A DNA stretch of 31,686 bases from a virus, in IMG/VR virus record IMGVR_UViG_3300037293_000256, positions 1-31,686 of that record. The stretch is one strand, 5' to 3'. Positions 2,398 through 17,168 of the stretch are shown here, in pieces. The translations under genes were made by a program, and so were the position numbers. The notes under the pieces are model-generated. The model was not told where the DNA came from, did no database searches, and was given only the letters and a program-made list of their open reading frames with translations. Position 1 is the stretch's first letter, and the number at the start of each line of letters is the position of its first letter.

Positions 2398-2745
2398 GCT
2401 CGAATTCAGCGCTGCAGTGATCTGGGCGCGCGTCAGCCCAAACTGCCGTGACAACGCCGCTGGCTTCACACCTGCTTGAATGGATGAACGGATCAGGCTG
2501 ATTTGTGATCTGGTGAGTTTTGATAATATCGGATCCACTTTTGTCTTGGTCGGCGCTACGTTCTTCGGCTTGGGGCCAGTCAATCCACGGTTCTGCATCT
2601 CCACCTCGACCGCCTCTGCTAAGCGCAGGATGTCTGGCTCCGGCAAATGCCGCAACGAAGCCGCAAGATTTTGCGGCAACAACGTACGCGGTGCATCAGG
2701 CCCATCAGAACCGAGCACAGCCTCTTTTTTGTTTTGGCGTGTCAT
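2392..2745 (-). CDS. Hypothetical protein with C-terminal HTH
   Basis: A 117-residue protein. The last 45 residues form a helix-turn-helix of the homeodomain-like/Hin type: L-T-R-S-Q-I-S-L-I-R-S-S-I-Q-A-G, then A-A-L-S-R-Q-F-G-L-T-R-A-Q-I. This predicts DNA binding. The N-terminal half is polar and proline-rich with no clear domain, although H-L-P-E-P-D-I-L-R-L-A suggests one helix. It converges on the DUF3489 transcript and ends in that gene's terminator. On the minus strand it is the last gene after the methyltransferase and membrane-protein pair, 25 bases from the membrane gene. Possible roles are a small phage regulator or a terminase-associated protein; I cannot choose between them. Confidence 0.6.
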   Translation of the reverse strand: MTRQNKKEAVLGSDGPDAPRTLLPQNLAASLRHLPEPDILRLAEAVEVEMQNRGLTGPKPKNVAPTKTKVDPILSKLTRSQISLIRSSIQAGVKPAALSRQFGLTRAQITAALNSSK

Positions 2746-2770
2746 ACATCACAGTATTGATTGCCCGTTC

Positions 2771-2983
2771 TCATTTGCCAAGCCACTCAAACAACCGCCG
2801 CAGCAGATATCCCCTTGCCAAAGACACCCCAACAAACGCTAATCCAATCGCCAGATGCTCATCCAGCGTGGCCTCTATTTCAAACCAGGAAAACACAACG
2901 ATCTGCGTGGCTACCGCGACACCGTAGCCGACGATCACATTGGCGACGGCTTCGATAAGTGACATGGCGCGCGACTGCTTCAT
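2771..2983 (-). CDS. Small two-helix membrane protein, DUF7220-like (copy B)
   Basis: A 70-residue paralogue of the protein at 221-433. It has the same length and the same two hydrophobic segments, and keeps S-x-I-E-A-V-x-N, V-G-Y, A-V-A-T-Q and L-R-R-L-F. The loop between the segments differs most (residues 31-44) and is more acidic here. Its ATG overlaps the stop codon of the methyltransferase gene (ATGA, 2983-2980), so its translation is probably coupled to that enzyme. Inner-membrane location is predicted; function is unknown. Two diverged copies 2 kb apart suggest either an old duplication or a required pair. Confidence 0.7.
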   Translation of the reverse strand: MKQSRAMSLIEAVANVIVGYGVAVATQIVVFSWFEIEATLDEHLAIGLAFVGVSLARGYLLRRLFEWLGK

Positions 2984-4266
2984 GCTTCGTTGCGCTCAAC
3001 CTTGAGGTCTGCGAAGGCCCTCCCATCGCCCTCAAGTACGGGCGTCTCGCCGGTGAACTGCTGCCACCGCTCCACCGCCACATCGACGTAAGCCGGGTTC
3101 AGCTCGATACCGAAGCAGACACGTCCAGACATCTCGGCAGCAATCAGCGTGGTCCCGGATCCCATGAAGGGCTCGTAAACCGCCTGCCCGGGGCTCGAGT
3201 TGTTCTCGATCGGCCGGCGCATGCATTCGACCGGTTTCTGGGTCCCGTGAACCGTCTTGGCATCCTGATCCTTGCTGGGGATTTGCCACAGCGTCGTCTG
3301 CTTGCGATCACCCGCCCAGTGACCCTTGCCGGTCTTTTTGACAGCGTACCAGGCCGGTTCATGCTGCCAGTGGTAATCGCCCCGGCTGAGCACCAGCCGT
3401 TCCTTGGCCCAGATGATCTGGGAGCGGATCGTGAACCCCGCCGCCTCAAGGCTTTCCGCGACGGTCGCTGCGTGCAGCGCGCCATGCCAGACATAGGCCA
3501 CGTCACCCGGAAACAGCGCCCAGGCCTCGCGCCAATCGGCCCGATCATCGTTTAGCACCTTGCCGGTACGCTTGGTTTTGGCCGCACCCACCTGGTTGCG
3601 CCAGCTCGGGTCGTACTCAACGCCGTAGGGTGGATCTGTGCACATCAGCAGTGGCTTCACACCGTTCAGCACTTTCTCCACATCCGTCGCCACAGTGCTG
3701 TCACCGCAGAGCAGCCGGTGCTTGCCGAGGATCCAGACATCGCCGGGCCTCGTCACCGGGTCCTCTGGAACCTCCGGCACGTCGTCAGGGTCCGTCAGAC
3801 CGCCCGTGGTGTCGATCAGCGCATCGGGCAGGATCTCTGCCAGGTCCTCGGCGCTGAAGCCGATGAGCGACATATCCTCGATGCCGAAATCCTCGCGCAG
3901 CTCCCCGATCTCGATGCGCAGCATCTCCGGGTCCCATTCCGCGATTTCCGCCAGCCGGTTGTCGGCCAGCGTGTAAAGCCGCCGGTCCTCTTCGGACCAA
4001 CCGCGCGCTACCATTACCGGGACCTCCGCCAACCCCAGCTGCGCCGCCGCCATCAACCGGCCGTGGCCCGCAATGATTGTGCCATCCTCACCCACCAGCA
4101 TCGGGATGGTGAAGCCGAACCGCTCCATCGACGCCGCGATCTGATCGATCTGTTCCGGCGGGTGCTGGCGCGCGTTTTTGGCGTATGGCGCAAGATCGGC
4201 CACCTGCCACATCTCGACCTGCGCCGCAGGCCAGGCCTGCGGGTTGATTTTGGATTGTGCTGTCAT
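2980..4266 (-). CDS. ParB-domain / DNA methyltransferase fusion
   Basis: A 428-residue protein combining an N-terminal ParB/sulfiredoxin-like domain (residues about 18-115, with G-H-G-R-L-M-A-A at 67-74) and a C-terminal DNA methyltransferase. Motif IV is D-P-P-Y at 211-214 and comes before the S-adenosylmethionine site F-M-G-S-G-T-T at 367-373, the order of beta-class amino-methyltransferases. D-P-P-Y favours adenine-N6 over cytosine-N4. This fusion is widespread in alphaproteobacterial prophages. Methylation of phage DNA, to resist host restriction or time packaging, is the usual proposal. An upstream in-frame start at 4356 would add 30 basic residues from the repeat region. I prefer the ATG at 4266 because the ParB homology starts there. 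It overlaps the membrane gene at 2983. Confidence 0.88.
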   Translation of the reverse strand: MTAQSKINPQAWPAAQVEMWQVADLAPYAKNARQHPPEQIDQIAASMERFGFTIPMLVGEDGTIIAGHGRLMAAAQLGLAEVPVMVARGWSEEDRRLYTLADNRLAEIAEWDPEMLRIEIGELREDFGIEDMSLIGFSAEDLAEILPDALIDTTGGLTDPDDVPEVPEDPVTRPGDVWILGKHRLLCGDSTVATDVEKVLNGVKPLLMCTDPPYGVEYDPSWRNQVGAAKTKRTGKVLNDDRADWREAWALFPGDVAYVWHGALHAATVAESLEAAGFTIRSQIIWAKERLVLSRGDYHWQHEPAWYAVKKTGKGHWAGDRKQTTLWQIPSKDQDAKTVHGTQKPVECMRRPIENNSSPGQAVYEPFMGSGTTLIAAEMSGRVCFGIELNPAYVDVAVERWQQFTGETPVLEGDGRAFADLKVERNEA

Positions 4267-4735
4267 CGGGATCCTGCCGGGCACGGGCCTACGCCCCCGC
4301 CGAAACGAAACGAACCGCAGGGGGTCATTTCGTTTCGCGAAGGGACGAAAGCCCATGTTTTATTGGGGTTTGGCGCGGTTTGAGGAGCCTCAAACTGCAC
4401 GAAACGAAGTGGGTTTAGGGGGGTGTCATTTCGCCAATTCGGGACCTAAACCCCTGATTTCATTGAGGGCGACCCCCTCTGAAACGAAGCGAAATGGGTT
4501 TTTGAAAGAATAAAAAACGCTCAAATCCTGCGAGGCGGCGGCCCCGCGTAACACAGCGCGTCAGAAGGGACCCAAGGGCCCCCTGTCGGTTTGTGCGGTG
4601 GCCTCTCAGCACGCTGATTTGGCCCTTGCAAGTGTTCTATCAAAGTCGCGAATCGCTGTCCAAGAAAAATATGTCCCGCTGTTCTTTTTTCTGTTTGCCA
4701 TTGAAACTGTTACCTTTTCTTGTCCCACACGCTGG
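4267..4735. promoter_or_regulatory. Repeat-rich non-coding region upstream of the methyltransferase
   Basis: There is no credible gene in these 469 bases. They hold five GAAACGAA/TTCGTTTC octamers (4302, 4307, 4401, 4481 direct; 4329 inverted) and GTCATTTCG at 4324 and 4425, with its inverted core CGAAATG at 4490. There is also a perfect dyad GTTTGAGG-AG-CCTCAAAC (4378-4395) and a long stem GGGTTTAGG (4411-4419) with CCTAAACCC (4445-4453). An AT-rich patch at 4498-4525 could hold a promoter. The density of repeats suggests a multi-site operator or a packaging/partition site rather than an ordinary leader. No protein has been linked to it. Confidence 0.5.
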
Positions 4736-6692: not shown

Positions 6693-9638
6693 TCATGGGT
6701 CGAGCTCCTTGAGCCAATTGGGCTTGGGGGAACCCTGTGAACCTTGATTTCGAGGTTCACACCGAGGTTCACACTCACATGCCTCTGATATCGTTGACGT
6801 TTGTGAACCTTGTGAACCTTGTGAACCTATTCCGGGCCCATCCCTATCGTGCGCGTGCGCACGTGCCCGCGTATGTGAAGGGGTGGAAAAAGGTTCACAA
6901 GGTTCACAAGGTTCACATTTGCCAGCAGGATCAGTGGGTTGGAAGTGTGAACCTCGGTTTTGAAGGTTCACACCACCCCCCAAAGGTTCACACTCCTTTT
7001 CGCCCTCAGGTTGATCTGACGAATTCTGCGTCTCTTTGAACAGTTCAAGTTTCCACTTTGCAGCCCTCCGATACGTTCCCGCTGACCGCAGCCGGACGCT
7101 CGCGTGGCCGACATTGAAGATGCGATCACGCATCTTTGTGAGCGACATTCCAAACGCCGTTTTCTGAGCGCGCTCGGTATGACCAGATATTGGCGGCCCC
7201 GGATCGCAGAACGTGGCGACATCGAAGAGATCTGCGGAGGCCACTTCCGCGGTCCCAAACCGATCCCACCAGGCGGCAATGAAGGCACTCCATCCTGCGC
7301 CTTCGCTGTCAGAGGCCGCCATCATGTCCTCGAGGTTGGTCAGAAACCCGGGAATGCCAGCCGTCGCCAGCACGCCCCCAATCACCTGCGCCCAGTTCTC
7401 GTAGGAGCCGATGGTCTTTGTGGCACGCGGCTTGCCAGCGGCAATCCACGCCTGGCAGAGCGTCAGGCAGGCCGCCACGATGCGTGCGCGATTGGCGCGG
7501 ATCCAGACCATAAGATCTGGGTGGCGGAAGCCGCCGCGCTGCCATGGACGTTCAACATTGGCATCGAGCCGGATGCGCACAAGGCGGCGGGCCATCTCGT
7601 TGGAGAACTCGGGGTTGTTGCCGGTCGCGATCCAGAGGCAGCGGATTGGCAGACGGGTCATTTCCGAGACCCCAAGCACGCGGTCCTCCCAGAAGGGCGC
7701 GGTCAGCGCGGCCGCGACGGCCGAGCTGTCGAGCTTGGCACGCAAGTTGTCGATCAGGATCATCGAGGGGATCTGGCGCAGCTTGGCGGTGACGCGCTTG
7801 CGCCATTCCTCGTCATCGCGCCCCTCGGTCATGACGCTGGCCCCAGTGCCGGTCAGGATGGTGGCCACGGCATCAACCATCAGCGTCGCGCCGGTGCCTG
7901 GTGTGGGCTTCTCGATCAGGTGCAGCGGCGTCGGACCATCTACCATGCCGCGCAGAAAGCCGAGCAGCAGCAGGGCGACAACATGGGCGCGTTCTGCCTC
8001 GCCGGTGAATGGGAAGTCCCCAAACAGGTCTTCGCAGATCAATTCGCGCGCAGCGGTAATTTCAGCCTCACTGGGCCGTTTTGGGATATCCGGCACGGTA
8101 AAGCCTGGTGCGGGCACATAGAGCAGCCGCGCGTCCGGGTGATAGCCCGGCATGGTGATCAGCGTGCCACTGCGGCCAAAGACTGGCGTGTTGACGATGC
8201 CTGTGAGCACCGGCAGAGCTGGGTCGGGCGTGGCCAGCACGGATTTGACCGTGGCAACCGGCGGCGGCGCTGGCAGCAATTCTCCCTTGGCGTTTTCGCG
8301 CACCCACCGGGCGAGGCGTGCCAGCATGTGGCGCAGGCGTTCCTCGTTCAGCATTGTAGCGACAGGGCGGCCTTCGTCGTCCGGCACCACCCATGTGGGC
8401 TGGCCCGCAAAGCGATAAACCCAAGGCTTGCGGTTCGAGGCCATGATGACGCTCCAGACCTGCGCAACCGCGCGGCCAAGGTCGCCCTCATCGGCGCGCA
8501 GGACGGGGATCTCGTTGCCAGTGCCCTGGTAGTTCAGAGGCCGGTGCTGACCAATTTGCAGCACGGCATCGGCATCGACTTCTTGCTCGGTTGCCTCGAT
8601 CAAACGCGCCACGGCCGACGAACCGGCCTGCAGCAACATGTCGTTAAAGTCCTCGCCCTCCTCGGGCGGTAGCGCGATGGCGACGTCTCGGCCTTGTGCA
8701 CGAAGCCTGCGAGCGCTGGCCTCAGCGGCACGCAATCCCGCACCGGATGCATCGTGATCGGCCAAGATCAGCACGCGCTGCCCGGCCGGGGGTAGTTCCA
8801 CCTGCTCAAGCCCGGAGGTGGAGAGCGTCGCCCAGACCGGCAGGTCGGGACAGGCCGTCATGACCGCGAGACCGGTTTCGATGCCTTCGCAAAGCGCAAC
8901 CCGCCCATCTTTGCCAATCGGCGCAAGGCGCACGGCCCCGCCTGCGATCCGACCCAGCATCATCTTGGGCTTGGCGATCGGGGCCTTGCGCACCTCGTTC
9001 GCGTCCTGAACGAGGTAAGTACGGTGCAACCCGATCACATCACCGCTGCGATCGCGCACCTGGCCAAGAAGCGCGGCAAAGCCGGTCTTGGTTTCCCAAT
9101 GGGTCAGATCGTTATGAAACAGCAGATCGCTGTCCGTGGGCAATGCCAAGCCACGCCCTTGCAGATATTGCGCCGCAGGCGTCTGCGCGATCGGCACAGC
9201 GCGGGACAGGATATGGGCGATATCCTGCGCTGCGTCCCGTTTTGGCGCTGGTTTGGACAAGGGCGCTTGCCGCGCTGGCGCCCCCGGTAGAATGCCAGCC
9301 ATGTCTGCTGCCTCGATGATCAGGTCACGCCCGGTCAGCCCAGTGGCGGCCTCAATGGCGCTGATCGGCCCGCCGCCTTCATTGCCGTCGAAGTCGATCC
9401 AGTCCCCGGCATGCGGCCCGCGCAGGGTGATGACGCAGGAGCCGGTATTGCGCGGTGCATCACCGCGGATATTGGCCAGTCGCCATTCATCACCAACACG
9501 CTTGCCGTTTGGAAACAGACGCGGCACCCAATGCTCGGCCGTCTCACGCAGGCGTTGGACGATCAGGTCCAGATCATAGCGATCGGCTTGCGGCCGCGAC
9601 GGCATCGCGTCGTTGAAATCAATCACGGTGGCAGTCAT
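6693..9638 (-). CDS. Toprim primase-helicase (phage replication protein)
   Basis: A 981-residue replication protein. Residues about 20-110 resemble a primase zinc-binding region that has lost its cysteines. A DUF7146-like part and a Toprim domain follow, with E251 (C-E-G-I-E-T-G-L), D294/D296 (A-D-H-D-A-S-G) and G-E-D-F-N-D at 328-333. Residues 540-700 form an AAA+/helicase-like domain: a P-loop-like E-K-P-T-P-G-T-G-A-T-L (576-586) lacking the usual lysine, a Walker B-like I-L-I-D (about 630) and an A-T-G-N-N sensor (about 672). It should make primers and possibly unwind DNA at the phage origin. The last 90 residues are low-complexity (C-E-P and G-S-Q repeats) and are encoded by the GGTTCAC array. 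The start is at 9638, with GAAGGAGG upstream. Confidence 0.88.
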   Translation of the reverse strand: MTATVIDFNDAMPSRPQADRYDLDLIVQRLRETAEHWVPRLFPNGKRVGDEWRLANIRGDAPRNTGSCVITLRGPHAGDWIDFDGNEGGGPISAIEAATGLTGRDLIIEAADMAGILPGAPARQAPLSKPAPKRDAAQDIAHILSRAVPIAQTPAAQYLQGRGLALPTDSDLLFHNDLTHWETKTGFAALLGQVRDRSGDVIGLHRTYLVQDANEVRKAPIAKPKMMLGRIAGGAVRLAPIGKDGRVALCEGIETGLAVMTACPDLPVWATLSTSGLEQVELPPAGQRVLILADHDASGAGLRAAEASARRLRAQGRDVAIALPPEEGEDFNDMLLQAGSSAVARLIEATEQEVDADAVLQIGQHRPLNYQGTGNEIPVLRADEGDLGRAVAQVWSVIMASNRKPWVYRFAGQPTWVVPDDEGRPVATMLNEERLRHMLARLARWVRENAKGELLPAPPPVATVKSVLATPDPALPVLTGIVNTPVFGRSGTLITMPGYHPDARLLYVPAPGFTVPDIPKRPSEAEITAARELICEDLFGDFPFTGEAERAHVVALLLLGFLRGMVDGPTPLHLIEKPTPGTGATLMVDAVATILTGTGASVMTEGRDDEEWRKRVTAKLRQIPSMILIDNLRAKLDSSAVAAALTAPFWEDRVLGVSEMTRLPIRCLWIATGNNPEFSNEMARRLVRIRLDANVERPWQRGGFRHPDLMVWIRANRARIVAACLTLCQAWIAAGKPRATKTIGSYENWAQVIGGVLATAGIPGFLTNLEDMMAASDSEGAGWSAFIAAWWDRFGTAEVASADLFDVATFCDPGPPISGHTERAQKTAFGMSLTKMRDRIFNVGHASVRLRSAGTYRRAAKWKLELFKETQNSSDQPEGEKECEPLGGGVNLQNRGSHFQPTDPAGKCEPCEPCEPFSTPSHTRARAHAHDRDGPGIGSQGSQGSQTSTISEACECEPRCEPRNQGSQGSPKPNWLKELDP
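6737..6991. repeat. GGTTCAC/GTGAACC iteron array, candidate replication origin
   Basis: Twelve copies of one heptamer lie in 255 bases inside the 3' end of the primase gene. GTGAACC starts at 6737, 6803, 6812, 6821 and 6947. GGTTCAC starts at 6754, 6766, 6892, 6901, 6910, 6965 and 6985. Three exact TGTGAACCT 9-mers in tandem (6802-6828) face three exact AGGTTCACA 9-mers (6891-6917), making a perfect 27-bp inverted repeat around a 62-base spacer. The spacer holds GTGCGCAC and GCACGTGC palindromes. Iterons inside or beside a replication gene are typical of phage and plasmid origins. The GTGAAC core also resembles the type I iteron bound by the P4 alpha primase, as I recall it. Confidence 0.7.
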
Positions 9639-16445: not shown

Positions 16446-17168
16446 TCAGCAGATTTCTTGCAGGGCGTCGCGCAGACGCCGGGTCGCCCGCTGATAGCGT
16501 TTGCGCGTCGCCGCCTCAGACAGCCCCAATTCGGTCGCGACCTCGGCCTGGGAGAAACCGTCGATGGCCACGCGGATCACCAGATCAGCATCCGTTCCGA
16601 TGATGCGGTTGAGGTCGCCATGAAGCAGCGCGGGGCTGGCAGTGGCCTGCGACACTCCCCCGTCAATCGGGATATCGTCGGGATCGATATCGCTGCGAAG
16701 GCTCTGCTGCCTGTCCTCACGCTGACGCGTTCTGATCAGGTCCCGCTCGATGTTCCGCAGGATGGTTGCCGCGATCCAGTTGACCCGCCGCAGATCCAGA
16801 CCCCGAATGGCCTCGGAAACCCGTGCGAGGATTTCTGAAGCAACATCGTCGCCGGTGCCGATCCTGCGCCAGATCGATCTGCGCCGAACGGCATCCAGCC
16901 CCGGCCAGAGAGCCAGCAGCATCAGCGTCAGCGCACAATCGGAGGCCTCGCCACCAGACTGTGCGGCCCCGACCAGTGCGGCCAGAAATCGGTTTTTCTC
17001 GTCTGGCGCACGGCAACCGGCGTGCAGCGTATCCAGCAAAGCGGCCGGATCAACGAAATGCGCGAGCGGCTCGCTGCTGCACCGAAGCGCATCGAAGTTG
17101 TGTTGAAAACCGAGTGTTGAAGAAGAAAACATGAGGTGATCACGGATCTCGTGCCACGCGATGGACAT
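16446..17168 (-). CDS. Sigma-70-like RNA polymerase sigma factor / regulator
   Basis: A 240-residue protein whose last 60 residues form a sigma region 4 HTH: V-A-I-D-G-F-S-Q-A-E-V-A-T-E-L-G-L-S-E-A-A-T-R and K-R-Y-Q-R-A. A region-2-like helix (W-I-A-A-T-I-L-R-N-I-E-R-D-L-I-R) precedes it at about 130-150, joined by an acidic linker. The N-terminal 100 residues are helical and unlike standard sigma factors. A phage-encoded sigma-like activator of later genes is the simplest reading; a non-sigma HTH regulator is possible. The ATG at 17168 directly abuts a strong hairpin and lacks a Shine-Dalgarno sequence, so the in-frame ATG at 17132 may be the true start. Confidence 0.75.
   Translation of the reverse strand: MSIAWHEIRDHLMFSSSTLGFQHNFDALRCSSEPLAHFVDPAALLDTLHAGCRAPDEKNRFLAALVGAAQSGGEASDCALTLMLLALWPGLDAVRRRSIWRRIGTGDDVASEILARVSEAIRGLDLRRVNWIAATILRNIERDLIRTRQREDRQQSLRSDIDPDDIPIDGGVSQATASPALLHGDLNRIIGTDADLVIRVAIDGFSQAEVATELGLSEAATRKRYQRATRRLRDALQEIC

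Follow-up and report, generated by a model that had tools for sequence, protein, structure and literature searches.

An iteron array of changing sequence inside a phage primase-helicase gene is a candidate replication origin

Iteron-reading initiators and the window locus

Initiator–iteron pairs are usually known from a few plasmids, and an AT-rich unwinding element is a common feature of iteron origins. In phage lambda the iterons lie inside the initiator gene (O protein, ori); lambda O and PLE RepA are different initiators, without a fused primase-helicase. In PLE RepA the DNA-binding domain covaries with the origin, and repeated swaps have occurred among the few variants compared (PMC8263062). 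The self-loading helicases SaPI Rep and SCCmec Cch2 each use their C-terminal domain to recognise iterons that immediately follow their own gene (PMC7581432). Directly 3′ of the RepA gene of the Streptomyces plasmid pWTY27 lies an array of GTGGGAAC/GTTCCCAC repeats that includes a long inverted repeat and is bound by RepA: binding was shown in vitro, the loop between the repeats was unprotected, deletion of the 300-bp array region abolished replication, and returning that region rescued it (PMC3583192). P4 alpha combines a Toprim primase, an SF3 helicase and a C-terminal winged helix in one chain and binds origin repeats; in pRN1, a stem-loop of about 100 bp just 3′ of the ORF904 gene is the origin, its shape being kept and its sequence not (PMC4234260).

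The window analysed here, the whole of a complete IMG/VR virus record (31,686 bases), carries an iteron array within the gene of a primase-helicase. The family of this protein shows the traits of SaPI Rep, pWTY27 RepA and Cch2, namely an SF3/D5-like helicase, a C-terminal domain of the winged-helix type and iterons immediately after it; unlike the 3′-of-gene arrays of those three, the window array lies inside the open reading frame. The comparison with P4 alpha drawn in the preliminary description is a fair analogy, but SaPI Rep, Cch2 and pWTY27 RepA are closer, because their iterons lie directly 3′ of the initiator gene. As modelled, the window primase resembles P4 alpha in joining Toprim_3, a helicase fold and a winged helix in one chain, and it differs in that the array is within the gene and the helicase region has no Pfam match. 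SaPI Rep and Cch2 differ in that their origin is intergenic and they have no Toprim primase fusion, and a residue–base code is not described for them in PMC7581432. pWTY27 RepA has a homologous helicase/winged-helix region (31.6% identity; tblastn 1e-55), and in the pWTY27 sequence the repeat arms face each other across a spacer; its array lies outside the gene, its primase is a separate protein (RepB), its unit is GTTCCCAC, and diversification of the unit is not described. pRN1 ORF904 shares the SF3 helicase and C-terminal winged helix with the window protein, but has an archaeo-eukaryotic primase domain, no iterons and an origin outside the gene.

Repeats also follow the homologous gene, outside it, in another Streptomyces plasmid, a Methanosarcinales virus and a Methylobacterium plasmid. 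The arrays directly 3′ of these distant homologues (L307, 4210–4540; L308, 4521–4870; L309, 4414–4600) are absent from the gene tables of their records and are probably origins. No description of the origin of the window's phage family was found in the open-licence papers searched. The kind of initiator is known (self-loading, with iterons adjoining its gene); what sets this family apart as a variant is the in-frame embedding, the scale of unit turnover, the residue–base correspondence and the alternating core.

The array and the protein that contains it

The array (6736–6992) falls within the final 100 codons of the primase open reading frame (981 aa; 6693–9638, minus strand). All twelve GGTTCAC/GTGAACC heptamers that had been reported between 6737 and 6991 were found again by a sequence scan, starting at 6737 (−), 6754 (+), 6766 (+), 6803 (−), 6812 (−), 6821 (−), 6892 (+), 6901 (+), 6910 (+), 6947 (−), 6965 (+) and 6985 (+); the window holds 17 such heptamers, against a mean of 3.68 and a maximum of 9 in shuffles. 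The full repeat unit is 9 bp long (AGGTTCACA), and 12 of 12 copies are exact. Read along the coding strand with TGTGAACCT as the forward unit, the layout is two forward units, one reversed, three forward, 62 bp, three reversed, two forward and one reversed. Numbered in that order, iterons 1 (6984–6992, plus), 2 (6964–6972, plus) and 3 (6946–6954, minus) precede the three tandem units 4–6 (6891–6917, plus), the opposite arm is formed by iterons 7–9 (6802–6828, minus), and iterons 10 (6765–6773, plus), 11 (6753–6761, plus) and 12 (6736–6744, minus) complete the array. The perfect 27-bp inverted repeat of the preliminary description is likewise present: 6802–6828 is fully complementary to 6891–6917, with 62 bases between them. 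A longer imperfect inverted repeat spans 6761–6958, and the array segment is predicted to fold much more stably than its shuffles (z −10.5 as DNA and −11.1 as RNA).

The central spacer (6829–6890, 62 bp) has the edges TTTTCC/GGAAT on the coding strand and contains an alternating purine–pyrimidine tract, CGTGCGCGTGCGCACGTGC (6848–6866). The spacers of homologous loci have TTTTCC/GGAAA-like edges between the inner triplets, and their longest alternating runs average 24.9 nt, compared with 6.2 nt in shuffles; the tract of the homologues is usually longer than that of the window. The mid-array alternating tract is conserved between the window and the homologous spacers, and it has Z-DNA potential. 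An AT-rich stretch beside or between the iterons was looked for and none was found, the spacer being GC-rich. It is possible that the strands open at the spacer by Z-DNA formation, by cruciform extrusion or by helicase-driven melting.

The protein consists of a DUF7146 and Toprim_3 primase half, a D5/SF3-like helicase, a C-terminal winged helix and a repeat-bearing tail. The Toprim_3 match is at 9e-21, the DUF7146 domain is also detected, and the protein matches PHROG primase families. A Pfam search of the helicase region (residues 375–751; 7386–8516, minus strand) gave no match; the region was assigned from an AF2 model of residues 375–866, which resembles the MPXV E5, NrS-1, D5, PriRep1 and SaPI5 helicases (Foldseek E 1e-5 to 1e-4). 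The winged-helix domain (residues ~770–866; 7041–7331, minus strand), which the model and the covariation described below mark as the putative iteron-binding domain, is modelled with a helix at 822–835 and strands at 840–843, 846–856 and 859–865, the helix–helix–hairpin part having a pLDDT of about 90. When this domain alone was submitted to Foldseek, no single match was significant (best E 0.79), and many of the matches were winged helices. The predicted recognition helix is formed by residues 822–835 (7134–7175, minus strand) and the wing, a beta hairpin, by residues 846–865 (7044–7103, minus strand).

The helicase P-loop, EKPTPGTGAT (residues 576–588; 7875–7913, minus strand), has an alanine in place of the usual Walker A lysine, and an earlier lysine is conserved without exception in the 45 sequences aligned. 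The GTGA(S/T) P-loop also occurs in one roseophage and one archaeal virus; a normal GK is present in pWTY27 and in two further plasmid homologues.

Fixed geometry, changing units and covarying residues

IMG/VR and GTDB genomes supplied the homologues (phages and prophages, mostly of Rhodobacterales and other Alphaproteobacteria), which, after removal of duplicates, amounted to 132 distinct loci with a complete 3′ end. An array lies at the equivalent place in 131 of them; in eight of these 131 the geometric fit was weak or short, and the unit consensus was assigned by repeat counting. Most loci can be fitted with the window's 12-site geometry unchanged, with spacer distances of 65 or 71; the fit is less exact in distant members. 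The search for conserved heptamers in homologous primase genes that the preliminary description proposed thus recovered the geometry, but not GGTTCAC itself: units follow the pattern A-N2-N3-N4-(T/C)-C-(A/C)-C, with 29 consensus 8-mers, a few of them containing ambiguous letters. All copies within a locus share one unit and change together, although some arrays are mixed (e.g. L046 and L088). Because all copies follow the unit of the locus, the encoded tail differs completely between unit types (CEP/GSQ, GGP/GPP, GEP/GSP, CEV/SHS and others). The tail is in frame in most loci; in four (L155, L071, L042 and L026) the open reading frame is cut short inside the array by a stop or frameshift, and the remaining units continue downstream with unchanged geometry. 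Among the homologues the array is kept and the tail changed, the reverse of the pattern that would have spoken against an origin, a tail kept after loss of the DNA repeats. The earlier view that the tail is a by-product of constraint on the DNA is borne out by tails that vary or end at stops where the array persists.

About 60 unit changes map onto a tree of primase residues 1–780, and these sequences indicate that specificity has been switched many times; loci L094 (unit AGGTTCACA) and L053 (unit AGGTTCCCC), for instance, have near-identical cores and different units. We compared the closest pairs of loci whose units differ at a single position with about equally distant pairs that share a unit; the p-values are uncorrected for 866 columns, and the pairs are disjoint and not fully independent. 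Residue 857 differs in 28 of 29 pairs that differ at unit position 7 and in 7 of 59 same-unit pairs (p 2e-15); residue 859 in 14/14 pairs for position 5 versus 3/57 (p 3e-12); residue 823 in 23/24 pairs for position 4 versus 12/59 (p 9e-11); residue 827 in 19/24 pairs for position 3 versus 7/58 (p 8e-9); and residue 831 in 22/23 pairs for position 2 versus 22/60 (p 5e-7). Residue 858, beside 857 at the hairpin turn of the AF2 model, also covaries with position 7. Residues 823, 827 and 831 lie in the modelled helix 822–835, and their spacing would place them on one helix face against three neighbouring bases, as expected for a recognition helix.

A first mutual-information screen of 11 proteins of the replication module pointed at the C terminus of the primase. 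When the pair test was extended to about 2,500–3,300 columns of these 11 proteins in 94 loci, the top column was always in the primase winged helix: it was the residue named above for positions 3, 4, 5 and 7, and at position 2 residue 824 came out marginally ahead of 831. On the tree of residues 1–780, base and residue changes largely share branches (combined changes 41, 29, 26, 19 and 30 versus residue changes 40, 24, 26, 19 and 29 for positions 2, 3, 4, 5 and 7).

When relatives less than 12% distant were excluded, the base was predicted from one residue in 107/115 loci at position 2, 109/123 at position 3 (the least exact), 118/119 at position 4, 114/123 at position 5 and 121/122 at position 7. 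All five bases were predicted correctly in 90 of 110 loci, as against 29 when the nearest remaining relative was copied. The correspondence is as follows: at residue 857, H goes with C, and R or Q with A; at 859, A goes with T, T with C, and S with either T or C; at 823, R or K goes with T, and Q, N or H with C; at 827, T goes with G, and V, I or A with C or A; and at 831, M or I goes with G, K mostly with C (sometimes T or A), and R with T. Because the unit and the reading residues change together, which residue reads which base would be largely deducible from such comparisons. We also applied the code to pWTY27 RepA, which does not follow it, but an alignment at about 31% identity is too uncertain for a fair test.

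Identity of the arms and tail outside the units is 0.58–0.83 in different-unit pairs and 0.89–0.97 in same-unit pairs with a comparable core distance, which suggests that switching proceeds by exchange of a segment carrying the domain and the arms more than by single-base drift; point-by-point change in place, as the usual mode, is disfavoured by this strong divergence. In the pairs L094/L053 and L019/L017 the spacer is almost identical between unit types and the flanking arms are strongly different. On this comparison, near-identical spacers are explained neither by simple block exchange nor by a simple recombination history. We considered incompatibility as a driver of switching and found no support for it: both assemblies that contain two elements (Jannaschia seosinensis, L094/L096, and the MAG loci L108/L127) carry one shared unit, identical within each assembly. 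Possible drivers of repeated switching are competition between phages, parasites, and host or phage nucleases, and these are now testable.

The origin reading and its alternatives

We consider it highly probable (roughly 0.9) that the array is the replication origin of the element and is bound by the primase-helicase whose gene contains it. The preliminary description had proposed origin-type iterons bound by the primase in which they lie, and the array, its geometry, the concerted change of units, the covariation, the persistence of the array past broken reading frames and the turn in GC skew at the array all argue for this proposal, as do the published experiments on the homologous pWTY27 RepA and the downstream iterons of SaPI Rep and Cch2. 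The GC-rich spacer, the lack of an individually significant structural match for the winged-helix model, the looser reading of position 3, the double meaning of S at 859 and the departure of pWTY27 RepA from the code speak against it. Coding-strand GC skew is higher after the array than before it in 41 of 41 longer loci, and, of 23 non-redundant loci, 19 have their detrended skew minimum no more than 1.5 kb from the array; the skew is supporting evidence only, because the loci are related, the array's own composition contributes and the signal is small.

We propose that the C-terminal winged helix would bind the twelve 9-bp units, its recognition helix reading unit positions 2–4 and its wing positions 5 and 7. 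A helicase ring would sit on each of the two mirror-image triplets, the pair opposed across the central spacer, and this spacer would be melted or extruded and primed in place by the primase-helicase itself. As the putative origin occupies the last codons of the initiator gene, right after the DNA-binding domain, key and lock would be inherited and exchanged together.

The covariation points to recognition and not to its consequence; the array might therefore be an operator or copy-number control site for the primase winged helix, with replication starting elsewhere. P4 has a separate control site for its alpha protein. We regard this explanation as unlikely: the array lies where the gene ends, a long way from its promoter, the GC skew turns there, and the corresponding region of pWTY27 is required for replication. 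A P4-type second repeat region (crr) away from ori was not seen with exact AGGTTCACA units in the 49-kb record of L030, which is possibly incomplete, because all exact units of that record sit in one array.

It is very unlikely that the inverted repeats work at the mRNA level, through a 3′ hairpin that stabilises or regulates the transcript. The folding in mRNA that the preliminary description had raised is indeed predicted to be very stable (the RNA z given above), but a function there is not favoured, since a stem needs only pairing arms and leaves unexplained both the same unit in the outer copies and the unit bases that track winged-helix residues. An Rfam search of the array gave no credible match, the sole listed match being below its gathering score. 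Equally improbable is a reader of the array elsewhere in the replication module: when kinship is not controlled for, columns of Sak4 and SSB are correlated with unit position 2, but under the matched-pair comparison no column outside the primase does better than p 8e-4 at any unit position, compared with 1e-4 to 1e-14 for the primase residues. That the repetitive peptide is the functional element and the DNA repeats merely follow is the least credible explanation, for although the tail is in frame in most loci, the units differ in reading frame and occur in both orientations, unit types have wholly different peptides while the DNA spacing stays, and stops or frameshifts delete the tail and leave the array.

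Beyond the origin reading itself, we suggest, at about even odds, that origin specificity in this family is continually diversified: the winged helix and the embedded origin would form a lock-and-key cassette, switched dozens of times, with a largely readable one-residue-per-base code and a conserved alternating, potentially Z-forming initiation core that replaces the AT-rich element. About 130 natural variants with about 29 unit types and a near-fixed geometry offer residue-level evidence of how a winged helix would read an origin, with a specificity predictable from sequence in most loci. The origin reading would also locate the origin in a large group of alphaproteobacterial prophages and make the array a clear case of a DNA-level function overwritten on a protein tail.

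Elsewhere in the window, a DNA methylase with a ParB-like N-terminal domain is encoded at 2980–4356 (minus strand), and a protein with a sigma-70 region 4 match is encoded upstream of the replication module (16446–17168, minus strand). The segment 20373–31327 carries genes for a DUF2924 protein, a serine recombinase and type I restriction-modification, together with a PIN_3/HTH_17 pair that resembles a toxin–antitoxin module.
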